Shown: piece by piece, positions 8,294 to 24,583 of the stretch
How positions within the stretch are numbered: the first letter of the stretch is position 1
Layout of the letters: each line of letters begins with the position of its first letter
NCBI RefSeq assembly: GCF_010119615.1
Contig: NZ_QOVG01000004.1
Location: 62,001 to 126,000 of the forward strand
DNA: 64,000 nt
From: Pseudoxanthomonas gei
GTDB lineage: Bacteria > Pseudomonadota > Gammaproteobacteria > Xanthomonadales > Xanthomonadaceae
Reading direction: 5' to 3'
Notes under the pieces: generated by a model
The model's input: the letters and a program-made list of their open reading frames with translations, nothing else
The model's database searches: none
Told to the model about the DNA's origin: nothing
Program-made: the position numbers and the translations under genes

Positions 8294-9508
8294 ATGGATC
8301 TCAAGAGCGGTTACCCCTACTGGGCCGTCAAGAACGGCCTGATGCACTCCTTCCCCCCATTGCAGGAAGACGTGCGATGCGATGTCGCCATCATCGGCGG
8401 CGGCATCACCGGCGCGCTGATTGCCGATGAACTGGCCGGACATGGCCATGACGTGGCGGTAGTCGAGCAGCGCGACGTAGGCTGGGGAAGCTCGTCGGCC
8501 AGCACCGCATTGCTGCAGTATGAAATAGACACCCACATGATCGACCTGGCCAAGCGCTATGGCGAACGCGATGCCGTACTTGCGTACCGGCAGTGCGCTG
8601 AGGCGATCTCCATGCTGCAGGACAAGGCCCGGGACATCCGCGACGTGGATTTCGGCTGGATGGAAAGCCTCTACTACGCCAGCAAACGCCGGCACGCCAG
8701 TGTGCTGCGGGAGGAATTCGAGCTGCGCCTGCGCCATGGTTTCGAGGTGGAGCTGCTGGAGAACGAAGACGTCAACGCGCGCTATGGCATCGATGCGCCG
8801 GTGGCGATCCTCAGCCACCAGGCAGCGCGCATCGATCCCTACCGCATGGCCTATCGTTTGCTTGCCCGCTTGCAGAAACGCGGCGGCGCGGTCTTCGACC
8901 GCACGCGCATCCAGAGTATCCAGTCCACTTCGCGCGGCATCACCCTGCAGACCACAGAAGGCCAGGTCATCCGCGCCGACCACCTGGTGCTTGCGGCCGG
9001 TTATGCCAGCCAGCAATGGCTGGAGAAAAAAGTCGCGCAGAACCGCAGCAGCTACGCGTTCATCACCGACCCCATCGAGGCCGACACGCTGGGCCAGCTG
9101 AAGGACACGATGGTATGGGAGTCGGCACGCCCCTACCTTTACATGCGCAGCACTGGCGATGGCCGGCTGCTGGTGGGCGGGGAAGACGACAGCATCGACA
9201 TCCCCGCGCGGCGCGACGCACGCGTGGACAAGAAGGCGCGCACCCTGGAGAAGAAGGTCGGCAAGCTCTTCCCCGAGGTGCCATTCAAACCCGCGTTTGC
9301 ATGGGCAGGCACGTTCGCCGAGACCCGGGACGGGCTGCCTTTTTTCGGTCCGCATGCGCAGCACGGGCCGCGCGTGCACTTCGCCATGGCCTATGGCGGC
9401 AACGGCATCACCTACAGCATGCTGGGAGCTGGCCTGCTGCGCGCTCTGATCGAGAAGCGCAAACACCCACTGGCAAGACTATTCGCTTTTGGACGATTGG
9501 ATCGCTGA
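8294..9508 (+). CDS. FAD-dependent oxidoreductase, DAO family
   Basis: A 404-residue flavoprotein of the D-amino-acid oxidase/glycine oxidase superfamily. The dinucleotide-binding motif is GGGITG at residues 35-40 (CDVAIIGGGITGALIADELA). The C-terminal flavin site reads FAWAGTFAETRDGLPFFG and then MAYGGNGITYSMLGAG. Family members oxidise C-N bonds of amines or amino acids, but the substrate cannot be named. I chose ATG 8294 over an upstream ATG at 8249 because the conserved sequence begins soon after. No signal peptide is seen. The TetR gene upstream could regulate it. Confidence 0.8.
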   Translation: MDLKSGYPYWAVKNGLMHSFPPLQEDVRCDVAIIGGGITGALIADELAGHGHDVAVVEQRDVGWGSSSASTALLQYEIDTHMIDLAKRYGERDAVLAYRQCAEAISMLQDKARDIRDVDFGWMESLYYASKRRHASVLREEFELRLRHGFEVELLENEDVNARYGIDAPVAILSHQAARIDPYRMAYRLLARLQKRGGAVFDRTRIQSIQSTSRGITLQTTEGQVIRADHLVLAAGYASQQWLEKKVAQNRSSYAFITDPIEADTLGQLKDTMVWESARPYLYMRSTGDGRLLVGGEDDSIDIPARRDARVDKKARTLEKKVGKLFPEVPFKPAFAWAGTFAETRDGLPFFGPHAQHGPRVHFAMAYGGNGITYSMLGAGLLRALIEKRKHPLARLFAFGRLDR

Positions 9509-10625: not shown

Positions 10626-11696
10626 TCAACGGGCCCGTCGCGCCAGCCACTCATGGATGGCAGTCGGCACTTCGCGCTGGGCCCGGCTGGACACGTAGAT
10701 GCCGATATGGCCGCCCTTGAAGCTGAGCTCGGTGTAGTCGCGCGTGCCAGCCAGCCCTTGCAAGGCACGTGACGCATCCGGCGGCACCAGGTGGTCCTGT
10801 TCGGCGAAGATGTTGAGGATCGGCATGTCGACATAACGCAGATCAACCGGCTCGCCATCGATCTCGATGCCGCCGTTGACGAAGCCGTTGCCCTGGTAGA
10901 ACTGCTTGATGAACTGGCGGAACGCCTCGCCCGCGAGGTCAGGCGAATCGAAGATCCACTTCTCCATGCGCAGGAAATCCTCGATAGCCGCCTTGTCATC
11001 GAGGATGTCGACCAGGCCCACGTATTTCTGCAGGTGCAGACGGAACGGCTTCAGCATCAGGTAGCTGGAATTCATCATGTCCGCCGGCACGTTGCCCAGC
11101 GTGTCCACCATCAGGTCCACGTCGATGTCCTGGGTCCAGTTCGACAGCATGTTGCCCGGGGTGTGGAAATCCACCGGCGTGACCATGGTGATGAGGTTCT
11201 TCACCTTCTCCGGATGCAGCGAGGCATAACAAAGCGAAAACGCGCCGCCCTGGCAGATGCCGAGGAGATTGATGGCGTCGCGCCCGGAGCTCGTGCGCAG
11301 GTGGTCGACCGCGCCGCCAATGAAGCGGTTGATGTAGTCGTCCAGCATCAGGAAACGGTCGGAGCGATCCGGGTATCCCCAGTCGATGATGTAGACGTCT
11401 TCCCCTCGCGCCAGCAATCCCTTGACCAGGGAGCGGTCGTCTTGCAGGTCGACCATGTACGGCCGGTTGACCAGCGCGTAGGCAATGAGCAACGGAACTT
11501 TCGCCGTGGGCGCATGCGCACCGATGAAGCGGTACAGCACCACTTTGCCATCGCGCCACACTTCCTGCTTGGCGGTTGCCCCGTACTGCACATCCTCCAC
11601 TTCCGGCAGCGTGCGCAGGCCCGCCGAAAGCTTCTGCTGCAGGGTCATGGCTTCCTGCGCCAACGCGCTGGGGGTCAAGTTCAGGGGACCGTTCAT
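10626..11696 (-). CDS. phaC: Class III polyhydroxyalkanoate synthase, catalytic subunit
   Basis: A 356-residue PhaC, the length of class III enzymes, which polymerise 3-hydroxyacyl-CoA (mainly 3-hydroxybutyryl-CoA) into granule polyester. The lipase-like box GICQGG carries the catalytic Cys148; Asp301 (EQDHLVPP) and His330 (KGGHIG) complete the triad. The start ATG overlaps the phaE stop by 4 bp (ATGA), so the two subunits are translationally coupled. Class III PhaC needs PhaE for activity, and PhaE lies immediately upstream. I see no phaA or phaB in the window. Confidence 0.95.
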   Translation of the reverse strand: MNGPLNLTPSALAQEAMTLQQKLSAGLRTLPEVEDVQYGATAKQEVWRDGKVVLYRFIGAHAPTAKVPLLIAYALVNRPYMVDLQDDRSLVKGLLARGEDVYIIDWGYPDRSDRFLMLDDYINRFIGGAVDHLRTSSGRDAINLLGICQGGAFSLCYASLHPEKVKNLITMVTPVDFHTPGNMLSNWTQDIDVDLMVDTLGNVPADMMNSSYLMLKPFRLHLQKYVGLVDILDDKAAIEDFLRMEKWIFDSPDLAGEAFRQFIKQFYQGNGFVNGGIEIDGEPVDLRYVDMPILNIFAEQDHLVPPDASRALQGLAGTRDYTELSFKGGHIGIYVSSRAQREVPTAIHEWLARRAR

Positions 11697-13105
11697 TTGC
11701 GTGCTCCCTTGCTGCGTGCGCCCTTGCCGGCAGGACTGCCCGGCAAAGGTGTGGGCGCGTAGCGCGCCACCCAGTCCTTCATCGAGACCACAGGCGCAGG
11801 CGTTTGCGCGGGCGCGGACTTCCGTTGCGCGGCGCCCTTCGGCAGGGCCCGGCTTGCGGCCACCGACGGCGAACTATCGCGGAATACCGTGACTTTCGTT
11901 GCTGGCTTCGTTGCTGGCTTCGTTGCTGGCTTCGTTGCTGGCTTCGTTGCTGGCTTCGTTGCCGCCGCCAGCTTGCGCCCGGCCGGCGCAGGGTCTTTGC
12001 GTGCCGGTGTCTTCTGCATGACCATCGCGGGCTTGGCTGCGACCTTGCGCGCCGCGGCTTTCTTCGCGGGAAGCACCTTCGCTGGCGCGGGTGTCGGCGC
12101 CCGTGCCTTGCGCACTGCAGCCTGCTTGCGTGGACCGCGGCGCGGCCTTGCTCGCGGGGATGAAGGCGTGGCGCCCTCTGCCACGGACGTCGCCGCCCTG
12201 CGCTCGGCCACGGGCCGGGTGCCGGCCGCCGCAGCGCGACGCAATGCCCGCTCGAGTTCGGCGATCTTGCGATGGGCCGAATCGACCTCGGTACGGGTCG
12301 GCATGCCAAACAGTCCGGTCAGGTGCTCGACTTCGAGCTGAATCGCCGCGCGCAAGCGCATCTGTGCATTCCCGAGTGCGCCGTAGACCTCGCGGAATTC
12401 CTGGGACAGCGCTATCGCGGCATACGCTTCCTCGGCCGAATCGATCCACAGGTCGAACAGACCGCGCGCAGTGGTGATCTGCCGGCCCGGCTCCTCGCGT
12501 GCGGTCAGCTTGTCCTCGAAGACCTCGAACGCGCGCTTGGCGCATTGCGCCATCAGGGTATTGAATTCCTCGGTCTGCAGCTGGTAATCCTGCTGCGCCT
12601 TTTGCAGCGCCTGCCAGCGCTCCTGGTGTTCGCGGTACTGCCCGAAGGCAGGCATCTGCTGCCAACGCTGGCCCTGCTGCTGGAAGCCCTCCAGGTAGGG
12701 CTTCACCTGTTCCAGCCATTGATCCAGCCCGTGCGCGCCCTGCCCGCGCATCGCCTTGAACATTTCCGGAAACGGGTTGTCGCCAGCCGCGCCTATCGCG
12801 CGCCGCCAAGCCTGGCTGATGTCCGCCGCGCTGCTGTCCTGTCCGGCGAACTGCGCGGCAACCTGCTGCATCTGCCCGAACCACTGGCTGGCCTGCTGGT
12901 TGAAACGCCCTACCGCATCGTTGGCCTGGCTGTGCCCGCCCGGCATCAATTTCGACCACCAGTCCACCGCCTGCTGCCACTGGTTGGCCGGCGGGACCGG
13001 CGCGCCGCCTGCACCTGCCTGGCGCATCGCCTCGCCCCATGCGCTCCAGTATTGCCGTGCCATGCCCTCGAAATCGCCGTTGTTGCCGAATCCGCTACTG
13101 AACAT
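11693..13105 (-). CDS. phaE: PHA synthase subunit PhaE with long Lys/Ala/Pro-rich tail
   Basis: A 470-residue partner subunit of class III PHA synthase. Residues 1-290 are the PhaE core: the start MARQYWSAWGEAMRQAG, the helical centre, and the conserved block LFDLWIDSAEEAYAAIALSQEFREVYGALGN split across 216-246. A coiled coil at about 278-294 follows. Residues ~300-470 are a basic, Ala/Lys/Pro-rich tail with AAKP-like motifs and a run of TKPA repeats, resembling the histone H1-like tails of PhaF phasins. The tail makes it longer than usual PhaE proteins. GGAGGT sits at good distance before ATG 13105. It is coupled to phaC by a 4-bp overlap. Confidence 0.92.
   Translation of the reverse strand: MFSSGFGNNGDFEGMARQYWSAWGEAMRQAGAGGAPVPPANQWQQAVDWWSKLMPGGHSQANDAVGRFNQQASQWFGQMQQVAAQFAGQDSSAADISQAWRRAIGAAGDNPFPEMFKAMRGQGAHGLDQWLEQVKPYLEGFQQQGQRWQQMPAFGQYREHQERWQALQKAQQDYQLQTEEFNTLMAQCAKRAFEVFEDKLTAREEPGRQITTARGLFDLWIDSAEEAYAAIALSQEFREVYGALGNAQMRLRAAIQLEVEHLTGLFGMPTRTEVDSAHRKIAELERALRRAAAAGTRPVAERRAATSVAEGATPSSPRARPRRGPRKQAAVRKARAPTPAPAKVLPAKKAAARKVAAKPAMVMQKTPARKDPAPAGRKLAAATKPATKPATKPATKPATKPATKVTVFRDSSPSVAASRALPKGAAQRKSAPAQTPAPVVSMKDWVARYAPTPLPGSPAGKGARSKGARK
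11895..11966. repeat. 12-bp tandem repeat inside phaE
   Basis: Five perfect head-to-tail copies of TTCGTTGCTGGC (11895-11954) are followed by one degenerate copy. The unit is a multiple of three and encodes TKPA on the coding strand, so changes in copy number would lengthen or shorten the tail without a frameshift. Confidence 0.95.
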
Positions 13106-13868: not shown

Positions 13869-15707
13869 TCAGCGCTGGGCGGGAATGGCGAGCTGCACGG
13901 CTTCCACTGCGCCGGTTCCGCGCGGGCTCGCTTCGATGACGGCGTCAGCGGGCTTGCCCGCCTTCCCATCCAGGCGGGCCGCCACCTGGTCCAGCGCCGC
14001 GTACACATACGGCAGCACGGGCACATAGCGCGCGCCATACGCCGGTAGCGCCAGGAAGCCGTCGAAATGCTGGGCATGCTTCACTTGCCAGTAGGCCACG
14101 TCCCGTCCCGCGGCCTGCGCGGTGGCGACATAGGGCGCGCTGCTGAACGCGGGCGGCACCAGTCCATCGTCCAGGCCATGGATGACCACGACCGGCAGGC
14201 CCTTGCGCGGCATTGCAGCCCGCGTCTGCGCCAGTCCACGCTTGAATGCGCTGTCATCCGGCGCCTCCGGCAGGCCCCGCAGGCACTGCAGTCCCGGCAG
14301 GGTGAAATCGGGTGGAGCCAGTTTGGTATCCACGATGCCAACGCCGGCTCCCGGCGGAATGCCGCTGCCGTCGGCAAACCACGCGCTGCGTTCGGCCTGG
14401 GTGGCCGCGCGCGGCGAGAAATCAGGATTCTGCGCGGCAAAGGAGTAGCCGCAGGGATGCTGCCCGATCGGCGAGCGCGCATAGGCCGAGGCGTAGGTCA
14501 CGGCCACTGCGCGCCACAGGTCGAAGCCGACACTCAACGCGCCAGCGGTCAGCGCCTGGTCCGTCCAGCCATTGGCATGCAGGCGCTGGTAAGCGGATTC
14601 CGCCTGCGCCTTCGTGTTGTCTCCCGTGACCAGTCCGGACTGTTTGAGTGCGGCGCAACGCGCAATCCACAACGGCTCAGCCTGCGCGCGCACCGGCGGC
14701 TGCGGCAATGAGTCGGCCGGCAGGTGCAGCAGGGCGCAGGGCATCAGCAGGGCGGCTTCGGTGGTGTAGTCGTAGAGCGTGCGGCTGCCCGCACCCGGAA
14801 CATAGATGTTCGGCTCACCTGCAACCACCGCATCCAGCCACTCCCCTTCCAGTTCCGCGGCCCGCAGCACAGCGCCGCCCCCATTGGAAATACCCACCGC
14901 GATCACGCGGGTGTTGTCGAAGTTGAAGGGAGCCGATTGCGGAAATGCGCGATCCAACGCGGACAGCGCGAATTCGGCCGCCTGTTTCACATGGCGGCCC
15001 CAGTCGGCTTCGGGATTGTCACCCGAATGCGCGTGCTTGAAGGCCACGCCCGACGCTCCGGTGTCAACGTCAGGACGGAACGCGAGTGCTTCTTCCAGCG
15101 TGCCGCGCGTGCCGTCCAGCTTCACTCCGGTATGGGTGTCTATGTCGTAGTAATCGGTGCCCGCACCCTTGTCGGTGTAGGCAACGGCGCAACCCTTGGG
15201 CAGGCCCCAGGCACCGGCTACGGCGATGGAGCCGTAAACGCCACGCGAGCCCGACGAGGCCGTGACCACCACGCAGCGCTTGGCCTGGTCGAACGCGTCC
15301 GGAACCTGCACCAGCACGCGATGCGGCTGGCTGGCGCCGGCCACCGTGGCGAACGCGGAGAACTCGCGCCCCGGCACCCCGGCCACGCTGCCATAAACCT
15401 GGCCATAGCCTCCACTCGCCGACAGGTCGGCGATGCCACGCCAGTTGTTCCATATCGCCCGTCGGCGCAGCTCGGCGGCCGTGGGATTGGCAACCTCGGC
15501 GAATGCGGGCGGCACCATCGCCCGCAACCCCGCCAGGCCCAGGCCGGCGGTGAGCAGGTCATCGTCGCCACGATGTCCGGTTTCGCGTTGCGGCTCGATC
15601 ATCGCAACCTCTTTCGACGACGCACGGTGGAGTGAGGTACTGCAGGCCGAGGGCAACAGGCAGGCGAGCAGCACGGCGGCGAGGCGCAGGGACGGAGTCT
15701 GGTTCAT
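13869..15707 (-). CDS. D-(-)-3-hydroxybutyrate oligomer hydrolase
   Basis: A 612-residue hydrolase of the 3-hydroxybutyrate-oligomer hydrolase family, which cuts short polyhydroxybutyrate fragments to 3-hydroxybutyrate monomers. It starts with a signal peptide (LRLAAVLLACLLPSAC); Cys22 sits in a lipobox-like but non-canonical PSAC, so it is either a lipoprotein or periplasmic. The family blocks VVVTASSGSRGVYG, AVAYTDKGAGTDYYD and VGISNGGGAV (likely nucleophile Ser274) are clear, as is the late VVVIHGLDDGLVPPAF. It is divergent from the response-regulator gene, with a GTAC-N4-GTAC motif between, and upstream of pssA-phaE-phaC on the same strand. Confidence 0.9.
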   Translation of the reverse strand: MNQTPSLRLAAVLLACLLPSACSTSLHRASSKEVAMIEPQRETGHRGDDDLLTAGLGLAGLRAMVPPAFAEVANPTAAELRRRAIWNNWRGIADLSASGGYGQVYGSVAGVPGREFSAFATVAGASQPHRVLVQVPDAFDQAKRCVVVTASSGSRGVYGSIAVAGAWGLPKGCAVAYTDKGAGTDYYDIDTHTGVKLDGTRGTLEEALAFRPDVDTGASGVAFKHAHSGDNPEADWGRHVKQAAEFALSALDRAFPQSAPFNFDNTRVIAVGISNGGGAVLRAAELEGEWLDAVVAGEPNIYVPGAGSRTLYDYTTEAALLMPCALLHLPADSLPQPPVRAQAEPLWIARCAALKQSGLVTGDNTKAQAESAYQRLHANGWTDQALTAGALSVGFDLWRAVAVTYASAYARSPIGQHPCGYSFAAQNPDFSPRAATQAERSAWFADGSGIPPGAGVGIVDTKLAPPDFTLPGLQCLRGLPEAPDDSAFKRGLAQTRAAMPRKGLPVVVIHGLDDGLVPPAFSSAPYVATAQAAGRDVAYWQVKHAQHFDGFLALPAYGARYVPVLPYVYAALDQVAARLDGKAGKPADAVIEASPRGTGAVEAVQLAIPAQR

Positions 15708-15743
15708 GGGGCCAAGCTAACCCGGACTGCACCGCACGTCATC

Positions 15744-15755
15744 GTACTTTGGTAC
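15744..15755. promoter_or_regulatory. GTAC-N4-GTAC motif in divergent promoter
   Basis: GTACTTTGGTAC lies between the oligomer hydrolase and response-regulator genes. Its right half sits where a -35 hexamer would be for a TATGCT -10 at 15773-15778 (17-bp gap), the usual place for an activator that contacts RNA polymerase. The same motif, 10 of 12 bases when reverse-complemented, recurs at 23028-23039. Confidence 0.5.
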
Positions 15756-15843
15756 CACGCATCCGCTGCCACTATGCTGCTAGGGTTCGCGCTCCCCGCG
15801 CGACCACTGCGCAACCACCATGCCAACCGGATGCCCTGCCCGC

Positions 15844-16509
15844 ATGCCCAAGCTGCTGATCGCCGACGACCATCCGCTGTTCCGTGCCGCCCTGCGTGGC
15901 GCGGCGGCCGATGCCGTGGCCGATCTGTCGGTGCTGGAGGCCGAGTCACTGCAAGGCGTGCTGGCGGCGCTGGAAGCCCACGCCGACATCGACCTGGTGT
16001 TGCTGGACCTGCATATGCCCGGCAACCACGGCCTGGCCGGGCTGGCCGCTATCCGCGCGCAGTTTCCTGAAGTCGCGGTGGTCGTGGTGTCGGCCAACGA
16101 TGACCCGCGCGTGGTGCGGCGTGCGCTTGACCATGGCGCCGCCGGTTACCTGCCCAAGAGTTCGGGACTGGATGAACTGCGCGATGCGATCCGCAGCGTG
16201 CTGGCCTGTGAGCAGTGGCTGCCTTCTTCACTTCGCGCAACAGTGGCGCGTTCGCAGTCCTCGCAACACGATACCGAGCTGGCTGCACGCCTGGCGAGCC
16301 TGTCGCCGCAGCAGTTCCGGGTGCTCACCCTGGTCGCCGAAGGCCTGTTGAACAAGCAGATCGCCGACCGCCTGGATGTGCAGGAACGCACGGTCAAGGC
16401 GCACCTGACCGCCATCTTCGAACGCATGGGCGTACGCAACCGCACCCAGGCCGGGGTGGTGTTGAGGGAACTGGAACTGAGCGACCCAGCGCGGCAGATG
16501 GAAGGATGA
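15844..16509 (+). CDS. LuxR/NarL-type response regulator (CrbR/ErdR-like)
   Basis: A two-domain response regulator of 221 residues from ATG 15844; an in-frame ATG at 15820 adds eight. The receiver domain starts KLLIADDHPLF (acidic pocket Asp8-Asp9) and has the phosphoacceptor Asp55 in LVLLDLHMPG. The C-terminal LuxR helix-turn-helix reads LSPQQFRVLTLVAEGLLNKQIADRLDVQERTVKAHL in its central part. It resembles CrbR/ErdR/AgmR regulators, which partner kinases with a solute-transporter domain; such a kinase is encoded two genes away on the opposite strand. In other proteobacteria this pair activates acetate use. Here the target is probably local (see findings). Confidence 0.85.
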   Translation: MPKLLIADDHPLFRAALRGAAADAVADLSVLEAESLQGVLAALEAHADIDLVLLDLHMPGNHGLAGLAAIRAQFPEVAVVVVSANDDPRVVRRALDHGAAGYLPKSSGLDELRDAIRSVLACEQWLPSSLRATVARSQSSQHDTELAARLASLSPQQFRVLTLVAEGLLNKQIADRLDVQERTVKAHLTAIFERMGVRNRTQAGVVLRELELSDPARQMEG

Positions 16510-16570
16510 TGCGCTGGTCATTTTTTCGACACATCGCTTGACACGCCCGCCAGGCATGACGGATTCGAAG

Positions 16571-16616
16571 TTACCCACAGCTTTGCCCGCGTTCCATCCA
16601 CAGCACCTGTGGATGG
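16571..16616. repeat. Hairpin and DnaA-box-like 9-mers between convergent genes
   Basis: CCATCCACAG (16594-16603) and CTGTGGATGG (16607-16616) form a perfect 10-bp stem with a 3-nt loop. TTACCCACA at 16571-16579 is one base from the DnaA box TTATCCACA, and both stem arms are two bases from it. The element may end transcription from both sides or bind DnaA; there is no T-tract. Confidence 0.5.
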
Positions 16617-16632
16617 CTACCCGGACCCCGCA

Positions 16633-17121
16633 TCAGACCCGCGAATAGTTCCAGGACACCATGCCGCCATCGCGGTATGGCATCACTCCGTGGAAACCGC
16701 GCGGGTCCTCGTCGAACACCAGCGGCAGGAAATGGCGGTCGCCGTCCCATAGCGGCAGCTGCATGATGTCGGCGACCGCCACCCATTCCAGCGTGCCTTC
16801 GACGTTTTCCGTATACGGCGTACCCGAATATTCGGTGACCACGAACAGGAAGCCCAGCCAGTCTTCGCCATTCTTGCCGAAGCCGGGCCAGCTGATGGTC
16901 CCGCGCAGCGCCAGGGCCTCGCATTCGATACCGGCTTCCTCCAGGATCTCGCGGCGCATGCCCGCCACTACATCCTCGTCGCGCTCGATCTTTCCGCCCA
17001 GCCCGTTGTATTTGCCCAGATGCTGGTCGTCGGGCCGCGCATTGCGATGGATCAGCAATACCTTTGAGCGATCGGGGGAAAAGACATAGCCAAGCGTGGC
17101 GACGATGGGGGTGTAAGGCAT
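16633..17121 (-). CDS. Nudix hydrolase, MutT-like
   Basis: A 162-residue Nudix enzyme. The Nudix box G-x5-E-x7-REILEEAG is intact within GGKIERDEDVVAGMRREILE. The N-terminal VATLGYVFSPDRSKVLLIHR and the C-terminal GGMVSWNYSRV resemble 8-oxo-dGTP diphosphatases of the MutT/NUDT1 type, which clean oxidised nucleotides, but substrate choice varies widely in the family. It sits between the response regulator and its likely sensor kinase, separated from the kinase by a repeat element, and need not share their function. Confidence 0.85.
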   Translation of the reverse strand: MPYTPIVATLGYVFSPDRSKVLLIHRNARPDDQHLGKYNGLGGKIERDEDVVAGMRREILEEAGIECEALALRGTISWPGFGKNGEDWLGFLFVVTEYSGTPYTENVEGTLEWVAVADIMQLPLWDGDRHFLPLVFDEDPRGFHGVMPYRDGGMVSWNYSRV

Positions 17122-17181
17122 CAGGGAAGTTCTGCGGGGGATCGGCAGGCCATTCTAGATGCCGGCGCGGTCGTATCCCGT

Positions 17182-17280
17182 GTAGGAGCGTTGTAGGAGC
17201 GAAGCGAGTCGCGAAGCTCACAATGGATCTGGTCTACGGGTTTCGCGACTTGCGTCGCTCCTACATCGCCCCCTACACCG
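17182..17280. repeat. GTAG-headed inverted repeat (SMAG/REP-like)
   Basis: GTAGGAGCG occurs at 17182 and again at 17193, where it runs on into a palindromic arm to about 17215. The inverted copy TTCGCGACTTGCG...CGCTCCTAC occupies 17242-17264, and another CCCTACA lies at 17272-17278. This matches the GTAG-headed dispersed palindromes of Stenotrophomonas and relatives. The stop codon of the kinase gene (TAG, 17273-17275) is part of a flanking GTAG. Confidence 0.8.
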
Positions 17281-20200
17281 CCCTTGCCGCGAGCAACCTG
17301 TCCAAGACCGATTTCAGCGCCAAGGGGCGCACGGGCTTCGCCAGCAGGGCCAGCCCTGCTTCCTGCACCGCATGGCGCACGGCGTCGGTCTGGTCGGCGC
17401 TGAGGATCAGGCACGGCCTGGCGCCCGAGTGCGCGGCAAGTCGCTGGGCGACGGCCAGGCCGGTATCCCCATCGTCCAGATGGAAATCGAACAGCCACAG
17501 ATCGACCTGCCGGTTTTCAATAATCCGCGCTGCCTGCGCACCATCGGCCGCGACGTGCACGATGCAGCCCCAACCCGACAGTACCTGGCGCAGCGCCTCG
17601 GCCACCGCGGCGTCGTTGTCCAGTGCCAGCACGTGGCGGCCGGACAGACCCGACCTCGCCGTGCTGCTGGACACGCTGGATCGCGGCGTCACCCGCGGCA
17701 GGCTCACCGCGAAGATCGCTCCGCTGCCGACGCGGCTGCGCAGGGACAGCGGCGCATGCAGGAGATGGGCAATACGGTCGGCAATCGACAGGCCCAGACC
17801 CAACCCCTGCCCGCTGGCCGCTTCGCCCCGCCTGAACTCCTCGAAGATCGCCTGCTGGTCGCCCTGCTCTATGCCCGGGCCGGTATCGTGCACCTCGATG
17901 CGCACACCGTTGCCAGTACGGCGCACGCCCAGCAGGATTCCGCCGGACTGCGTGTAGCGCACCGCATTGGCGAGGAAGTTCTGCAGGATGCGGCGCAGCA
18001 GCTGCGGGTCGGTGTGCACCCAAGCGCGCGTAGGCACGTGGCGGAACGACAGCCCGTGCTCGCCGGCCAATGCACGGAATTCGGAGACCAGCGGTTCCAG
18101 CACTTCGGCCAGCGGCAGGTCACGCGGTTCCGGCACCAGCCCGCCGGCTTCCAGCCGCGACATGTCCAGCAGGCCGGTCAGCAGGTCGGTGGTGGAATCC
18201 AGTGCGCCGCGGATCTGTTGCACCGACTGGCGCTGGCTGCCATCGGCCAGCTGCTGCGACAAGGCATCGGTGAACAGGTGCGCGGCGTGCAGCGGCTGCA
18301 GCAGGTCGTGCCCGATCGCGGTAAGGAAGCGGCTCTTGGCATCATTGGCGTGTTCGGCTTCGGCCTTGGCGGTCTCCAGCAGCGCGGTGCGATCGACCAC
18401 GCGCTGCTCAAGCGTTTCGTTGGCCTGCTTGAGGCTGCGCTCGGCCTGGCGCGAGGCGCTGACGTCGGTGTAGGTGGCGACGAAGCCGCCGCCGGGCATG
18501 GGATTGCCGCGGATCTCCACGATGCTTCCATCCGGGAAAACGCGTTCTGTCAGGTGCGCGGTGCCGGCGCGCATGTAGGCGATGCGCCGCTGCAATGCCG
18601 CTTCGTCCGAACCGCGGTGCGGCATGCTTCGAAGGGCCCAGCGGGTCAGGTCGATGATCGGGCGGCCAACCTGCAGCAACTCATCGGGGAAGCCGAACAT
18701 CTGCACGTAGCGACGGTTCCATGCCACCAGGCGCTGCTCGCGGTCGACTACGCTGATGCCCTGGCTCATGTTCTGCAGTGCGGCCTCCAGCACCTGCTGG
18801 TTGAAACGCAGATCCTGCGAGACCTCACCGACGATGGCCGCCACGGCATCCAGCTCGCCGCTTTCACGGCGCGCCGCGTTCAGCAACAGTCGCGCGGACG
18901 CCGACCCAAGCACCGCCGACAGTTCGCGTTCCATACGCGCTTCAGTCAATGCGGGCACAGGACCCTGCGCCGGCGCTCCATCGAGCAACTGCTCGACGCG
19001 CTCGCGGGCCAGGAAGCGCAGTCCCGCATCGCGCAATGCCTGCCGGTCCAGGGCGCGGCCGCGATGATGCGGGGTTTCCCGACGCCAGGCGGTAGCCAGC
19101 ACGGTGGCCAGGATGCCGATGAACAGGCTGACGCCGACCGCACGCCCCAGCGGACTCCATCCGGTCAATCCGAACAATCCCTGCGGCGATAGCCAGGCCT
19201 GCCCGAAAGGACCCGACTGCAACCAGCCGGGATCGCTTGCGGACAGCGCGACCAGCATCGGCATCAGCATCACCCACGCCCAGGCGATGAACGCGGCGAC
19301 CACGCCGATGATGGCCGCGCGCGGCGGTGTCTGCGGGCGCCACACCGCGAAGCCCAACGCCGGCGCCAGTGTCGCCAGCGCGGAAAACGACACCGCGCCG
19401 ATGTCGGCCAGCGCCTCGTTGCCGCTGTCCAGGCGGCTGTAGGCCCAGGCCAGCAACATGATCACCAGGATGCCGCCGCGACGCAGCAGCAGCAGGTCGC
19501 CACGCCGGTCGCCGCCCTTGCCGCGCGACCACGCGCCGCGTAGCAGGCCCGGCGCGAACCAGTGGTTGCCGATCATCAGGCTCAGGGTCAGCGTGCTCAC
19601 CACCACCATGCCGGTGGCCGCGCTCAAGCCGCCCAGGAACGCGAACAGCGCCACGCCTTCATGGCCCTGCGAGAACGGCAACGCCAGTGCGTACATGTCT
19701 GAGGGCACGCCCGTACCCAGCAAGGCGGTGCCGGCGCGCGCCAGTGGCAGCGCCGGCAAAGCGATCAGGATCAGGTACAGCGGGAACTGCCAGCGCGCGG
19801 TTCGCACATCGCGGTCGTCGCGGCATTCCACCACGCCCACGTGGAACTGGTGAGGCAGGATGAACATCGCCAGCGCGCCCAGCAGCACCAGCGGCGCGAA
19901 TCCGCCCACCGGTTCCAGTGGCACCGCCGGCAGCGTCGCCGCAGGCATGGATTTCAGGCCGAACCAGACGAAGGCACCCAGTGCCAGCATCGCCACCAGC
20001 TTGAACAGCGACTCGAAGGCCATCGCCAGCACCAGGCCACGGTTGTGTTCGGCCGCATTGGCGCGACGGGTGCCGAACAGCATGGCGAACAGGGCCATCG
20101 CCAGGGCCACGTACAACGCACTGTCGCGCCAGGCGGGCACGGCTTCGACTACGTCGCCGGCGTCAACGGTGAGCGTGGCGAAACTCATCGCGATGGCCTT

Positions 20201-20602
20201 CAGTTGCAACGCGATATAGGGAATCAACCCCAGCACCGCGACCAGGGTCACTGTCGCGGCAAGCCATGCGTCCTTGCCAAGCCGGGTGGCGATCAGGTCG
20301 GCCAGCGAAGTGGCATTGGTCTCGCGCGCCAGCTTCACCAGCCGCACCATGAAACCCACGGCCAGTGCGTAAAAAAAGATCGCGCCCAGGAAGGTCGGCG
20401 GCAGCGGCCAGCCATAGCGTGCGGCCTGGGTGACGGTGCCGTAGAAAGTCCATGACGTGCAATGCACCGCCAGCGACAGCGAATACACATGGCGCCAATG
20501 GCGGGCGAACAGGGTTGGATGGCGCTCGCCATACAGCGCGGTGCCGAACATCAATCCCAGCCAGACGACACTGGCGAATGCGACAGTCCAGAAACTCAGC
20601 AT
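17273..20602 (-). CDS. Hybrid sensor kinase with SSS transporter domain (CrbS/MxtR-like)
   Basis: A 1109-residue membrane sensor. Residues ~1-500 form a sodium/solute symporter (SLC5) domain with about 12-13 membrane spans. A STAC-like linker follows (about 510-600: ALRDAGLRFLARERVEQLL, then LSAVLGSASARLLL), then PAS (about 620-740: GISVVDREQRLVAWN), a coiled coil, and HisKA with phospho-His765 in GHDLLQPL. The ATPase domain contains NFLANAVRYTQSGG and DTGPGI, and a C-terminal receiver carries Asp1039 in LFDFHLDD. This order is that of CrbS/MxtR kinases, which sense solutes such as acetate. The likely partner regulator is at 15844-16509. The gene lies 128 bp downstream of a TonB receptor gene. 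Confidence 0.88.
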   Translation of the reverse strand: MLSFWTVAFASVVWLGLMFGTALYGERHPTLFARHWRHVYSLSLAVHCTSWTFYGTVTQAARYGWPLPPTFLGAIFFYALAVGFMVRLVKLARETNATSLADLIATRLGKDAWLAATVTLVAVLGLIPYIALQLKAIAMSFATLTVDAGDVVEAVPAWRDSALYVALAMALFAMLFGTRRANAAEHNRGLVLAMAFESLFKLVAMLALGAFVWFGLKSMPAATLPAVPLEPVGGFAPLVLLGALAMFILPHQFHVGVVECRDDRDVRTARWQFPLYLILIALPALPLARAGTALLGTGVPSDMYALALPFSQGHEGVALFAFLGGLSAATGMVVVSTLTLSLMIGNHWFAPGLLRGAWSRGKGGDRRGDLLLLRRGGILVIMLLAWAYSRLDSGNEALADIGAVSFSALATLAPALGFAVWRPQTPPRAAIIGVVAAFIAWAWVMLMPMLVALSASDPGWLQSGPFGQAWLSPQGLFGLTGWSPLGRAVGVSLFIGILATVLATAWRRETPHHRGRALDRQALRDAGLRFLARERVEQLLDGAPAQGPVPALTEARMERELSAVLGSASARLLLNAARRESGELDAVAAIVGEVSQDLRFNQQVLEAALQNMSQGISVVDREQRLVAWNRRYVQMFGFPDELLQVGRPIIDLTRWALRSMPHRGSDEAALQRRIAYMRAGTAHLTERVFPDGSIVEIRGNPMPGGGFVATYTDVSASRQAERSLKQANETLEQRVVDRTALLETAKAEAEHANDAKSRFLTAIGHDLLQPLHAAHLFTDALSQQLADGSQRQSVQQIRGALDSTTDLLTGLLDMSRLEAGGLVPEPRDLPLAEVLEPLVSEFRALAGEHGLSFRHVPTRAWVHTDPQLLRRILQNFLANAVRYTQSGGILLGVRRTGNGVRIEVHDTGPGIEQGDQQAIFEEFRRGEAASGQGLGLGLSIADRIAHLLHAPLSLRSRVGSGAIFAVSLPRVTPRSSVSSSTARSGLSGRHVLALDNDAAVAEALRQVLSGWGCIVHVAADGAQAARIIENRQVDLWLFDFHLDDGDTGLAVAQRLAAHSGARPCLILSADQTDAVRHAVQEAGLALLAKPVRPLALKSVLDRLLAARAV

Positions 20603-20676
20603 GCGATATGGCGATCAGTCGACAGGGTCATGAGCATTCTGGCGAAGTGGATTGCAGGTGCGCCGAGCATAACGCA

Positions 20677-20704
20677 GCAACGGCGGGCTTTCGCCCGCCG
20701 TTGC
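20677..20704. terminator. Strong hairpin after the TonB receptor gene
   Basis: GCAACGGCGGGC and GCCCGCCGTTGC form a 12-bp perfect stem with a TTTC-type loop, 26 bp past the receptor stop and 74 bp ahead of the kinase start. There is no T-tract, so it may only reduce read-through into the kinase gene or protect the receptor mRNA. Confidence 0.6.
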
Positions 20705-20730
20705 CGGTCAATCAAGCCATCACGCAACCA

Positions 20731-22938
20731 TCAGAAATCGTAGCGCGCGGTCAGCGTGTACTGGCGCGGCGGACCGTAGAAGCCGGTCAGCACGCCATAG
20801 GCGGCGATGTTGTAGCCGGTGGTGCGATATTCCTCGTCGGCCAGGTTGCTGCCCTGCAGGGACAGCTGCCAGGCATCGTTGACCTTCCAGATGATGCCCG
20901 CGCCCAGCAGGCCGTAGCCGTCCTGGCGGATCAAGGGACTGAGGTCGGTGGTCGGCCAGACTTCGGCCTGGTACGAATAACCCACTCGTGCGGACAGGTT
21001 GCCGCCATTGGCCAGGTCGGTGCGGTATTCCACATTAAATGCACCCGAGAATTCCGGAGCATTGGTGAAGTGCTGGCTTTTGGCGACGTTGACGCCCGAG
21101 GTGATGAACTCGTCGTACTTGGCGTCCAGCCAGGCCAGGTTGCCGCTGATCAGCCAGTTCCGGGTCGGCAGCCACTGGTATTCCACCTCGACGCCGTTGA
21201 CCGTGCCCTTGCCGGCGTTGGTGAAGTCACCAAAGAAGCTCTGGGTGTTGTTCGGCAGCGTGTAGGAAGTGAACACCGACAGCTGGATGTCCTTGTACAC
21301 GTTGTGGAACGCAGCCAGGTTCAGGAACAGGCGCTGGTCGAAGAACGCCATCTTGCTGCCAACCTCGAAGCTGTCGACGCTCTCGTCATCGAACGGTTCG
21401 CCCGAACGCGGCACCGCGGTGGTGTTGGCGCGGATGTTGTAGCCGCCGGACTTGAACCCGCGCGAGGCCAGGCCGTAGACCAGGATGTCATCGGTGACCT
21501 GGTAATCCAGCGAGATCTTCGGCGACAGGTTCTTGAAGTTCACGGTCTTGTCGAAGTTGGCCGCCGTGCCCCACGAAGTGATGTAGTCGTTGGTGAGGTA
21601 GAAGCGGTTCAGCGCAATGGCGTGCTTGTCTTCATCGGTATAGCGCGCGCCCACGTCCAGCTTCAGCTTTTCGGTCAGGTCGAAGGTCCAGTCGGCGTAG
21701 AAGGCAAGGCTGCTGGTATTGACCACGCCCTGGGTGTCGCCGAACAGCGGGTTGGTCAGCGACGGCGCCTGGAAGGGATTGGAGAAGTAGTTCAGGACCT
21801 GGCCGCCGGCATCGCCGTTGAACGCATACAGGCCCATCACGCCGCGAGCGCGGCCACCGGCGTCGTAGTTGGCCTGCAGTTCGTGGCTGACCTGGCTGTC
21901 GCTGTAGAACGCGCGCACGTCGACCAGCTTGAGCGGCGTGGTGTCGAAGTCGATGTTGGTTTCGGTATCGGACTCGCGCTTGGCGATCACGTACTTGAAC
22001 GCCCAGTTGTCGTTCGGCCGCCAGTTGACCGTGGCCGACGCGCCCTTGATCACCGTGTCATTGACGTTGGGCATGCCACTGCGGATGTCGTAGCGGTCGT
22101 CCAGCGGCTGGTACGCCGGGGCGATCGGATTGGGCGCCAGCATCTTGGCACCTCGCACGCCGGACTTGTCGTCCATCCAGTCCAGCGCGAACTGCACGTC
22201 GAAGTCGTCGCCCGAATAGGCACCCAACTGGAAGCGTGCCGAATTGATTTCCTTGTCACTGACTTCCTGGTCGTTGAGCAGGTTGGTGCCGAAGCCATCG
22301 CGGTTCATGCTGGCCACAGCGACGCGTGCACGCAGGCCACTGTCGGCGCCGCCGATCGAGCCGCCGATCGCCGCCTTGGCATCCAGCTGGTTGTAGTTGC
22401 CGACGCTCACCTGGGCGAAACCGGAGGTCTCGGTGGGCAGGCCGCGCGAGATGTACTTGATCGCGCCACCAATGGTGTTCTTGCCGTACAGCGTGCCCTG
22501 CGGGCCGCGCAGCACTTCGATGCGTTCGACGTCGAACACATCCAGCAGGGCGCCCTGCGGACGCGCGATGTAGACGTCGTCCAGGTAGATGCCCACGCCC
22601 GGGTCCACGCCCCACAGCGGATCGGCCTGGCCGACGCCGCGGATGTACGCGGTGGCGGTGCTGCTGGAGCCGCGTGCGGCATAGATGGTCAGGTTGGGAA
22701 CCTGCGCATCCAGGTCGCCAATGTCGTTGATGTTGAGCTTGTCCAACGCTTCGGAAGTGAACGCAGTCACTGCCACCGGCACTTCCTGCAGGGTTTCCTC
22801 ACGCTTGCGCGCAGTGACCGTGACCCTGTCCAGCGTGGCTGCATTGCTGGTCGCTTCGGCAGGCGCCGCTTCCTGTGCCCATGCCGCTGGTGCCAGCAGT
22901 ACGCAGCCTATGGCCAGACTCAGATGTTTACGCTTCAT
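20731..22938 (-). CDS. TonB-dependent outer-membrane receptor
   Basis: A 735-residue TonB-dependent transporter. A signal peptide ends AAWAQ at about residue 20, and a TonB-box-like DRVTVTARKREE follows. The plug domain covers about 45-165 (LQEVPVAVTAFTSEAL, YIRGVGQADPLWGVDPGVG, ERIEVLRGPQGTLYGKNTIGG). A 22-strand-type barrel ends in the aromatic YTLTARYDF. The plug resembles receptors common in sphingomonads and xanthomonads that are not tied to siderophores, so the ligand is open. It is divergent from a GntP-type permease, with GTAC-N4-GTAC in between and the CrbS-like kinase downstream. I infer import of a carbon source, perhaps hydroxybutyrate oligomers. ATG 22938 follows a GGAG-type site. 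Confidence 0.88.
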   Translation of the reverse strand: MKRKHLSLAIGCVLLAPAAWAQEAAPAEATSNAATLDRVTVTARKREETLQEVPVAVTAFTSEALDKLNINDIGDLDAQVPNLTIYAARGSSSTATAYIRGVGQADPLWGVDPGVGIYLDDVYIARPQGALLDVFDVERIEVLRGPQGTLYGKNTIGGAIKYISRGLPTETSGFAQVSVGNYNQLDAKAAIGGSIGGADSGLRARVAVASMNRDGFGTNLLNDQEVSDKEINSARFQLGAYSGDDFDVQFALDWMDDKSGVRGAKMLAPNPIAPAYQPLDDRYDIRSGMPNVNDTVIKGASATVNWRPNDNWAFKYVIAKRESDTETNIDFDTTPLKLVDVRAFYSDSQVSHELQANYDAGGRARGVMGLYAFNGDAGGQVLNYFSNPFQAPSLTNPLFGDTQGVVNTSSLAFYADWTFDLTEKLKLDVGARYTDEDKHAIALNRFYLTNDYITSWGTAANFDKTVNFKNLSPKISLDYQVTDDILVYGLASRGFKSGGYNIRANTTAVPRSGEPFDDESVDSFEVGSKMAFFDQRLFLNLAAFHNVYKDIQLSVFTSYTLPNNTQSFFGDFTNAGKGTVNGVEVEYQWLPTRNWLISGNLAWLDAKYDEFITSGVNVAKSQHFTNAPEFSGAFNVEYRTDLANGGNLSARVGYSYQAEVWPTTDLSPLIRQDGYGLLGAGIIWKVNDAWQLSLQGSNLADEEYRTTGYNIAAYGVLTGFYGPPRQYTLTARYDF

Positions 22939-23027
22939 GTTTGATTCCCCTCTCCCGGGTACGACGTGGCGGGCCGATGCGGCCGATTCGCAGGCAAGGC
23001 TAGAGACTTGGCGGCGGGGCAGCACCT

Positions 23028-23039
23028 GTACCTTCGTAC
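23028..23039. promoter_or_regulatory. GTAC-N4-GTAC motif in divergent promoter
   Basis: GTACCTTCGTAC, extended to TGTAC-N4-GTACA as a perfect inverted repeat, lies about 90 bp from the TonB receptor start and 147 bp from the permease start. It matches the motif at 15744-15755 (shared form GTACSAARGTAC) and is a candidate site for the local response regulator. Confidence 0.5.
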
Positions 23040-23185
23040 AGTGGGGAGGAAGCGCCGCGCTGCGGATACTCGCCGGGAGAAGGGGGACGGTAGATGGTGA
23101 AGAAGAGCTCGTCTCTTCGGGTCTGACCATTTGCAGGCAGCAACGCTGCCCACTTCACCCTTAACCGCATTTCCGGAGTTTCCCG

Positions 23186-24583
23186 ATGTCCTTCCTGATC
23201 GTGCTGGCCGCATTGTGCTTCCTGATGTTCGTGGCCTACCGCGGCTACAGCGTGATCCTGTTCGCGCCGATCGCGGCGCTGGGCGCGGTGCTGCTGACCG
23301 ACCCCGCCCTGGTCGCGCCGATGTTCACCGGCCTGTTCATGGACAAGATGGTCGGCTTCCTGAAACTGTATTTCCCGGTGTTCCTGCTGGGCGCGGTGTT
23401 CGGCAAGCTGATCGAGATCTCGGGCTTCTCCAAGTCGATCGTGGCCGCCACCATCAAGGTCGTCGGCGCCCAGCGCGCGATGCTGTCGATCGTGCTGGTC
23501 TGCGCGCTGCTGACCTACGGCGGCGTGTCGCTGTTCGTGGTGGTGTTCGCGGTGTATCCGTTCGCCGCCGAACTGTTCCGCCAGAGTGACATCCCCAAGC
23601 GCCTGGTCCCCGGCACCATCGCCCTGGGTGCCTTCACCTTCACCATGGACGCGCTGCCGGGCACGCCGCAGATCCAGAACATCATCCCCACGTCCTTCTT
23701 CGGCACCACCGGCTGGGCGGCGCCGATGCTGGGCACGCTGGGCGGCGTGTTCATCCTGATCCTGGGCATGAGCTACCTGGAATGGCGCCGCCGGGTCGCG
23801 GTGCGTGCGGGCGAAGGCTACGGCACCGACCTGCGCAACGAACCGGAGCCCTTCCGCGGCGACAAGCTGGCCCATCCATTGATCGCTATCCTGCCTCTGG
23901 TGCTGGTAGGCGTGGCCAATTTCGCTTTCACCCACTGGATCCCGGGCTTCTACGGACAAAGCCAGTCGTTCATTCCCGCCGTGATCGGCAATCCCGCGCC
24001 GGTGGTGCAGGAAGTTTCCAAGGTCGCGGCGATCTGGGCCGTGCAGGGCGCCCTGCTGGTTGGCATCGCGGCGGTGATCGCCTTCGCCTGGAAACCGGTG
24101 ATCGCCAGTTTCGCCGAGGGCACCAAATCGGCCATCGGCGGGGCGTTGCTGGCCTCGATGAATACCGCGTCCGAGTACGGCTTCGGTGCCGTGATTGCGG
24201 CATTGCCGGGCTTCCTGGTGGTGGCCAACGCCTTGCAGGCCATTCCCGACCCGCTGGTCAACGAAGCGGTGTCGGTCACCGCGCTGGCCGGCATCACCGG
24301 TTCGGCGTCCGGTGGCATGAGCATCGCCCTGGCAGCGATGGCCGACAGCTTCATCGCCAACGCCAATGCAGCGGGAATCCCGATGGAAGTGCTGCATCGC
24401 GTCGCCGCGATGGCGTCGGGTGGCATGGACACCCTGCCCCACAACGGCGCGGTGATCACCCTGCTTGCCGTCACCGGCCTGACCCATCGCCAGTCCTACA
24501 AGGACGTATTCGCCATTACCGTGATCAAGACCCTGGCCGTGTTCTTCATCATCGGCCTGTACTACGCCACCGGGCTGGTCTGA
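23186..24583 (+). CDS. GntP-type permease, possible 3-hydroxybutyrate transporter
   Basis: A 465-residue inner-membrane carrier of the GntP/ion-transporter superfamily with about twelve hydrophobic spans. Notable stretches are DALPGTPQIQNIIPTSFFGT and, near the C-terminus, HRVAAMASGGMDTLPHNGAVITLL followed by LTHRQSY. Proteins with this C-terminal pattern are often annotated as D-beta-hydroxybutyrate permeases in proteobacteria, which would fit the neighbouring oligomer hydrolase and PHA genes. Gluconate or another organic acid is the alternative. It is divergent from the TonB receptor gene and is probably co-regulated with it. Confidence 0.8.
   Translation: MSFLIVLAALCFLMFVAYRGYSVILFAPIAALGAVLLTDPALVAPMFTGLFMDKMVGFLKLYFPVFLLGAVFGKLIEISGFSKSIVAATIKVVGAQRAMLSIVLVCALLTYGGVSLFVVVFAVYPFAAELFRQSDIPKRLVPGTIALGAFTFTMDALPGTPQIQNIIPTSFFGTTGWAAPMLGTLGGVFILILGMSYLEWRRRVAVRAGEGYGTDLRNEPEPFRGDKLAHPLIAILPLVLVGVANFAFTHWIPGFYGQSQSFIPAVIGNPAPVVQEVSKVAAIWAVQGALLVGIAAVIAFAWKPVIASFAEGTKSAIGGALLASMNTASEYGFGAVIAALPGFLVVANALQAIPDPLVNEAVSVTALAGITGSASGGMSIALAAMADSFIANANAAGIPMEVLHRVAAMASGGMDTLPHNGAVITLLAVTGLTHRQSYKDVFAITVIKTLAVFFIIGLYYATGLV

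Follow-up and report, generated by a model that had tools for sequence, protein, structure and literature searches.

The closest described relatives of the system treated here are CrbS/CrbR (MxtR/ErdR) and RpuS/RpuR. In CrbS/CrbR (PMC5715377 and PMC8402216), an SLC5-type hybrid kinase is paired with a LuxR-family regulator, and an imperfect palindrome with an AC-N4-GT core lies just upstream of the –35 region. In Pseudomonas fluorescens, CrbR activation requires the ACTU motif, which lies from –52 to –36 of acs, and the listed CrbR sites include TACTACCATCGTCGAAT and TACTACCAAAGTCTAAT (PMC5715377). The RpuS/RpuR pyruvate system of Sinorhizobium fredii targets MctP, and its motif is described as an imperfect direct repeat (PMC9100948). 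Here we analyse a 64,000-nucleotide stretch of Pseudoxanthomonas gei (assembly GCF_010119615.1, contig NZ_QOVG01000004.1, positions 62,001 to 126,000 of the forward strand; hereafter the window), in which a two-component system lies in a gene cluster that appears made for 3-hydroxybutyrate (3HB) use. Two GTAC-N4-GTAC palindromes, site A (GTACTTTGGTAC) and site B (GTACCTTCGTAC), each fall within a divergent promoter pair of this cluster.

The window system resembles CrbS/CrbR in its type of kinase and regulator and in the core and predicted position of its palindrome, and all parts of the CrbS architecture (SLC5-fold domain, PAS, HisKA, HATPase and receiver) are present in its kinase. It differs in its half-site, which is GTAC rather than GAC, in its 3HB neighbours, in that the promoter of the regulator itself carries a site, and in that the same genome has a separate acs-adjacent CrbR-like regulator and a second kinase. 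RpuS/RpuR is another two-component system of the SLC5/STAC kind, with its own promoter motif and a transporter among its targets (PMC9100948); the inverted repeat and the 3HB genes set the window system apart. No description of an SLC5-type system for 3HB was found among the open-licence papers listed, judged by titles and abstract starts. We consider it likely that sites A and B are operators of the cluster's response regulator, which would activate the genes for 3HB import and breakdown upon a signal from the kinase. The sites form a real, conserved pair and are most likely operators of a CrbR-paralogous system, and this would be a known sort of regulation, not a new kind.

An earlier note on this DNA had placed the two 12-mers at 15744–15755 and 23028–23039, and both positions were confirmed. 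Their agreement in 10 of 12 bases, also reported there, holds, but eight of these bases are the GTAC half-sites by which the sites were picked, and the extra agreement amounts to two of the four central bases. Conservation was sought in relatives, using two sets that overlap in species and are not independent: the loci of the best 80 of 376 relatives, mostly Lysobacteraceae (the named loci; 1,592,470 bases in total, with 1.6% in promoters A and B), and a panel of 41 genomes for orthologue searches (that of P. gei and 40 relatives). The earlier note would have taken matches no commoner in promoters than in coding DNA as a refutation; instead, 67 of the 69 GTAC-N4-GTAC copies in the named loci lie within promoters A or B, where 1.1 would be expected by area. 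As controls, GTAC half-sites at spacers of 2, 3, 5, 6, 7 and 8 gave 1, 0, 0, 0, 1 and 0 copies in these promoters, seven other palindromic tetramers at a spacer of 4 gave 0 each, and GAC-N4-GTC gave 8 against 6.6 expected.

The regulator is at least 86% identical in 20 of the 41 genomes, that of P. gei included, and each of these 20 loci has exactly one GTAC-N4-GTAC at site A, in the form GTACTTTGGTAC in 19 and GTACTTTCGTAC in one (either strand). Among the named loci, site A was testable in 44 and strict in 42; in the remaining two the sequence is GTACTTTCGTCC (L185) and GTACTTTGGTCC (L209), each with one mismatch and the same CATC before the site. This CATC to the left of site A is invariant in all 42 strict loci and the flanks further out drift, the GTAC letters themselves being fixed by the search. 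The distance from site A to the regulator varies, because a dehydrogenase gene intervenes in 15 of the 20 close loci. These genes are 82–100% identical to the copy in one relative (L017), which passes the TIGR01963 3-hydroxybutyrate dehydrogenase cut-off (355.8 versus 307.05 bits) and has hydroxybutyrate dehydrogenases as its best PDB matches. The suggestion of the earlier note that 3-hydroxybutyrate dehydrogenase belongs to the regulon is thus borne out in part: the gene stands directly behind site A in most close loci, but it is missing from 15756–15843 in the window, and elsewhere in the genome nothing matches it at more than 45% identity.

Site B was followed through the permease. Among 21 loci with a permease at least 83% identical, 19 have a strict GTAC-N4-GTAC upstream and two have one letter changed in one half, and all 21 of these genomes also have a regulator at least 60% identical. 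At site B, 76 of the 80 named loci differ from GTACSTTSGTAC in no more than two positions, and both A and B are strict in 14. A more distant relative (G032, regulator 62% identical) has GTACCAAGGTAC with a GntP permease (PF02447) on one side and a TonB receptor (PF07715) on the other. Where one half of site B is degenerate, it is the left half (TonB side) in Stenotrophomonas and the right half (permease side) in Lysobacter and Luteimonas, the other half being mostly GTAC, as if a symmetric site had decayed in opposite halves in different lineages.

GTAC-N4-GTAC occurs three times in the window, against 0.08 expected (100 shuffles). The third copy, at 8576–8587, was set aside as background, since it lies within a coding, oxidoreductase-like open reading frame (ORF). 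The 3.43-Mb P. gei genome has 14 copies, against 55 of the backwards pattern, and the 12 other than A and B are all overlapped by ORFs, as judged here and below on mechanical ORF maps; site B is overlapped there as well, but only because these maps extend the TonB ORF too far, its start being taken as 22938. Exact GTACSAARGTAC matches number four, namely A, B and one each in genes assigned by Pfam to an MFS transporter and a homocysteine S-methyltransferase. No further convincing regulon promoter was found among the 14 GTAC-N4-GTAC sites and 20 matches with at most one mismatch on these maps, which makes the regulon look confined to the cluster. The majority of the candidate sites in this genome are overlapped by ORFs; one (L128, GTGCTTTGGTAC) may be intergenic and is a possible member. 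Three candidates were judged by eye, L141 and L142 being presumably 23S rRNA and L130 presumably tmRNA.

The wider scan for GTACYTTSGTAC covered 25 whole genomes: 11 with a close regulator, five of the same genus without one, and nine of other genera. Eight of the 11 have exactly two copies, at A and B; the others are P. gei with four, G001 with three, and G003, a fragmented genome in which no permease was found, with one. The five genomes of the same genus have 0, 2, 0, 0 and 0, and both copies, in G007, are overlapped by ORFs. Eleven loci were inspected in detail, those of G007 included and the matches in G001 (C61) and G027 (C92) left out; two are permease/TonB promoters (G025 and G032) and six are overlapped by long ORFs. 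GTACYTTSGTAC is not exclusive to the system, but it is nearly so within the genomes that have a close regulator.

On both sides of each site stands a hexamer resembling a –10 element (Table 1). On the hydrolase side of site A, TANNNT occurs at an offset of 24–25 nt in all 42 strict loci, and on the other side at 23–26 nt in 27 of the 42, with the form TG.TA...T in 19 of 20 loci. Around site B, 68 of 76 loci have TANNNT toward the TonB receptor at 25–26 nt, and 38 of the 76 have GATACT toward the permease at the same offsets, most of the other 38 having (G/A)A(C/G)ACT thereabouts. The earlier note had taken TATGCT (15773–15778) as the –10 element of the regulator promoter, with site A over its –35. 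This hexamer is probably not the promoter element; the conserved TG.TA...T stands further on, here as TGCTAGGGT (hexamer 15781–15786), and is preferred. Site A would then lie just upstream of the –35, with its centre at about –43. If the four hexamers are –10 elements, the dyad lies near –43 for all four promoters, so that one palindrome would serve both divergent promoters at the predicted activator position. Measured from these predicted elements, the sites would fall in the class II (–35 proximal) range of –41 to –45 from +1, with the element right of B not of the TANNNT form. At the predicted +1 of the hydrolase there is an ATG (TANNNT-N6-ATG) in 21 of the 40 loci with a readable frame, and in the window too (TAGCTT-N6-ATG), from which a leaderless hydrolase mRNA is predicted in the window. 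The ATG at this point lends the predicted placement support of a separate sort. In other loci, the hydrolase start lies further downstream.

In the mechanism that we propose, the SLC5-type sensor kinase would detect a ligand, most likely 3HB or a close metabolite, and would signal to the cluster regulator, a pairing suggested by their co-location. A dimer of the phosphorylated regulator would bind the palindrome GTAC-SAAR-GTAC at A and B and, from about –43 of both divergent promoters, a class II-like activator position, turn on the genes for the TonB receptor, the oligomer hydrolase, the GntP-type permease and, in most close relatives, the dehydrogenase. The regulator's own promoter would be turned on as well, giving positive autoregulation, and the outcome would be import and breakdown of 3HB oligomers. 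What the sequences show are the sites with their conservation, confinement and spacing from conserved hexamers, the gene content and the separate acs-linked paralogue; direct binding, activation over repression, the pairing of kinase and regulator, and the ligand are inferred. The candidate regulon that the earlier note had proposed for the LuxR-type regulator, including the regulator itself, is favoured by the comparison with relatives, the site being in an activator-like position and present in the promoters of the regulator and its neighbours; the extension of that regulon to acs is not favoured (see below).

Several observations weigh against this assignment. The –10-like elements are weak, with TANNNT right of A in 27 of 42 loci and right of B in 0 of 25 (GATACT instead). 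Site B is strict in only 25 of the 80 named loci and worse than two mismatches in four, and one of its halves reads GTCC/GGAC in the majority of loci from Stenotrophomonas, Lysobacter and Luteimonas. GTACYTTSGTAC also occurs in genomes of other genera of the order that lack a close regulator (1, 1, 3, 0, 0, 1, 0, 2 and 2 copies in the nine scanned), and of the loci inspected, L240 adjoins a MerR gene, L236 is intergenic in an unrelated place and L238 is doubtful. For 10 more distant regulators, the best GTACYTTSGTAC match in the 1500 bp upstream has one mismatch in one case (G032, GGACTTTGGTAC, before the dehydrogenase), two in three (G037, G034 and G028) and three in six. Finally, published CrbR sites tolerate TAC in one half (TACTACCATCGTCGAAT; PMC5715377). 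Part of the 10 distant regulators falls in a further LuxR-type group (L041–L043, with an ENTVKIHV helix), which is found in G018, G009 and G007, of the same genus without a close regulator.

The tolerance of TAC in P. fluorescens ACTU sites, together with the AC-N4-GT core common to these sites and A/B, would fit binding of A and B by the acs-linked CrbR of the acetate system, with the cluster forming part of an extended acetate regulon. In the P. gei genome, acs lies on contig C46 with a CrbR-family regulator directly downstream, and a second family kinase, which we call CrbS as it is 79% identical to a kinase ~11 kb from acs in G011, lies on C48. The idea of one kinase serving two regulators, entertained when 18 of 60 candidates had been scored and a single kinase was seen, was abandoned when this second kinase was found (G000:C48:44457-47867). 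A comparison with the CrbR motif, which the earlier note had proposed, was run and gave the same AC-N4-GT core with different outer bases. The acs promoter of P. gei carries TTCGACGATGGTCTAA, of the ACTU type, which is the sole exact TTMGACSAWSGTCTAA match in the genome; at up to two mismatches the ACTU-type pattern matches 5 times and its backwards control 10 times, and weight is therefore given to the exact acs match alone. Of 25 acs loci above the model cut-off, 17 have such a GAC-N4-GTC site, all 15 of the genus among them, and the eight without it are of other genera; no TAC-N4-GTA was found in the 300 bp inspected at the 15 genus loci. For acs, which the earlier note had listed as a candidate target, a separate CrbR-like regulator lies alongside, and the promoter site is of the ACTU type (GAC-N4-GTC), not a GTAC palindrome.

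The regulators differ as well, and the one in the cluster is read as a CrbR/ErdR paralogue rather than as CrbR itself. In a tree, the 19 acs-type regulators cluster together with a support of 0.965; the window regulator lies outside, within a group of 61 whose support is only 0.643. Both the window regulator (226.4 bits) and the acs-linked regulator (237.8 bits) are below the 390-bit cut-off of the NCBIfam ErdR model. A stretch of the helix–turn–helix (HTH) domain reads QERTVKAHL in the cluster type versus SEATIKAHV in the acs type (R182 in 62 of 65, A182 in all 19), and this consistent difference (ERTVKAH versus EATIKAH) argues against binding of A and B by the acs-linked protein. From an alignment with NarL and the NarL structure, the stretch with residue 182 would be the recognition helix. 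NarL (PDB 1a04) is the best PDB match of the window regulator, alike in its receiver and HTH architecture and different in its signal. NarL recognises palindromic TAC...GTA, with its half-sites spaced wider. The distant G026 regulator also has ERT, yet its best upstream site is GGACCTAGGTCC, so R182 is not the whole cause of the half-site change. Taken with the acs loci, these differences leave control of A and B by the acs-linked CrbR unlikely.

Binding of the cluster regulator alone would not give the sign of regulation, and the regulator might act as a repressor, or as a mixed activator and repressor, of the divergent promoters. Divergent promoters with one common operator are often repressed. 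On either side, however, the predicted –35 region lies downstream of the site, and CrbR is an activator (PMC5715377); we regard repression as improbable.

A further possibility is that the palindrome is bound by some other transcription factor, such as a MerR-family protein. The MerR mercury operator is likewise GTAC-N4-GTAC, and in G032 another GTACCAAGGTAC (L240:1501-1512) lies at the start of a MerR gene (by Pfam), beside a divergent ORF read as MerT-like. In G025 and G037, the cluster genes are scattered over different contigs or positions, and the site at the permease is retained. MerR operators sit between –35 and –10, whereas A and B lie upstream, 24–26 nt outside the –10-like elements, and MerR is of an unrelated protein family. 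Among the nine window proteins scanned, there is no MerR-family protein and no transcription factor other than the response regulator. The regulator's own promoter carries a site, and its co-occurrence with the permease in all 21 genomes points the same way; we consider a different factor quite unlikely. Chance palindromes in GC-rich DNA, for which the coding positions of the third window copy and of the two further GTACSAARGTAC matches might speak, are refuted by the concentration of 67 of 69 copies in two promoters over 80 loci and are given a negligible probability.

The assignment of A and B to the cluster's response regulator also draws on the functions of the neighbouring genes, whose order in the window is PhaC/PhaE, 3HB-oligomer hydrolase, site A, response regulator, NUDIX, hybrid kinase, TonB receptor, site B and permease (Table 1). 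A model of kinase residues 1–600 (mean pLDDT 80.5, pTM 0.84) has as top Foldseek matches the SLC5 transporters NIS, SGLT2, CHT1, SGLT1 and SMCT1, with the sodium/iodide symporter ranking first at E 1.6e-07 (TM 0.58 by query; rmsd of 6.4). A profile of 18 kinase N-termini matches one solved chain, PDB 10ed_A, 'histidine kinase' (E 1.7e-92). Pfam gave no transporter family for the kinase, even at E 10, and no domain named STAC, with no STAC model run. The permease of the window has no Pfam, NCBIfam or PDB match of its own and its structure model is poor (mean pLDDT 50.8), so its identity was read from the neighbours of plasmid homologues: Azospirillum plasmid proteins that carry the annotation 'GntP family permease' share 75% identity with it, and in the two records inspected the permease is followed, in an operon, by genes for 3-oxoacid CoA-transferase A and B and 3-hydroxybutyrate dehydrogenase. 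Its closest counterpart among the named relatives is that of Pseudoxanthomonas yeongjuensis (96%). The start of the response regulator was taken from orthologues, which align from the ATG at 15844.

Among the other genes, the TonB receptor beside site B comes in two unlike classes, at least 59% identical to that of the window in 52 of 77 loci and at most 35% in 25. A NUDIX-type gene is present in some relatives' loci too, for example L026 and L032. PhaE contains a run of short ATKP repeats.

Table 1. Genes, predicted operators and –10-like elements of the window (positions in the window)
Feature	Position	Strand	Remarks
Class III PHA synthase, PhaC + PhaE	10626–13105	–	beyond the oligomer hydrolase
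3-hydroxybutyrate-oligomer hydrolase	13869–15707	–	PF10605, 448 bits; predicted leaderless mRNA
–10-like TAGCTT, hydrolase side	15714–15719	–	24 nt from site A; then 6 nt and ATG
Site A, GTACTTTGGTAC	15744–15755		predicted operator common to hydrolase (–) and response-regulator (+) promoters
–10-like TAGGGT (extended TGCTAGGGT), regulator side	15781–15786	+	25 nt from site A
Response regulator, 221 aa, receiver + LuxR/NarL-type HTH	15844–16509	+	Pfam PF00072, PF00196; CrbR paralogue, presumed binder of A and B
NUDIX-type gene	16633–17121	–	between regulator and kinase
Hybrid sensor kinase, 1109 aa: SLC5-fold membrane domain, PAS, HisKA, HATPase, receiver	17273–20602	–	Pfam and model; presumed partner of the regulator
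TonB-dependent receptor	20731–22938	–	PF00593, PF07715
–10-like TAGCCT, TonB side	22997–23002	–	25 nt from site B
Site B, GTACCTTCGTAC	23028–23039		predicted operator common to TonB receptor (–) and permease (+) promoters
–10-like GATACT, permease side	23065–23070	+	25 nt from site B
GntP-type permease, probably for 3HB or acetoacetate	23186–24583	+	from annotation of plasmid homologues and neighbours

More tentatively, the system may represent a further functional class of SLC5-type two-component systems, one that senses 3HB, in which the regulator would have diverged from GAC to GTAC half-sites by way of operators changed in one half, such as are seen in living lineages, with R182 in place of A182 as one candidate cause and a single dyad driving each divergent pair from what would be the activator position for both promoters. 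The operator assignment suggests which ligand class, regulon and operator would belong to a sensor system that occurs across many genomes of Pseudoxanthomonas, Stenotrophomonas, Lysobacter and Luteimonas. The genes concern the oligomer breakdown of polyhydroxybutyrate, a biodegradable plastic and bacterial storage material. The cluster regulator and the acs-linked regulator would form a natural paralogous pair in one cell, with operators alike in their core and unlike at about three outer positions of each half-site, and such a pair would make insulation between paralogous response regulators directly testable.

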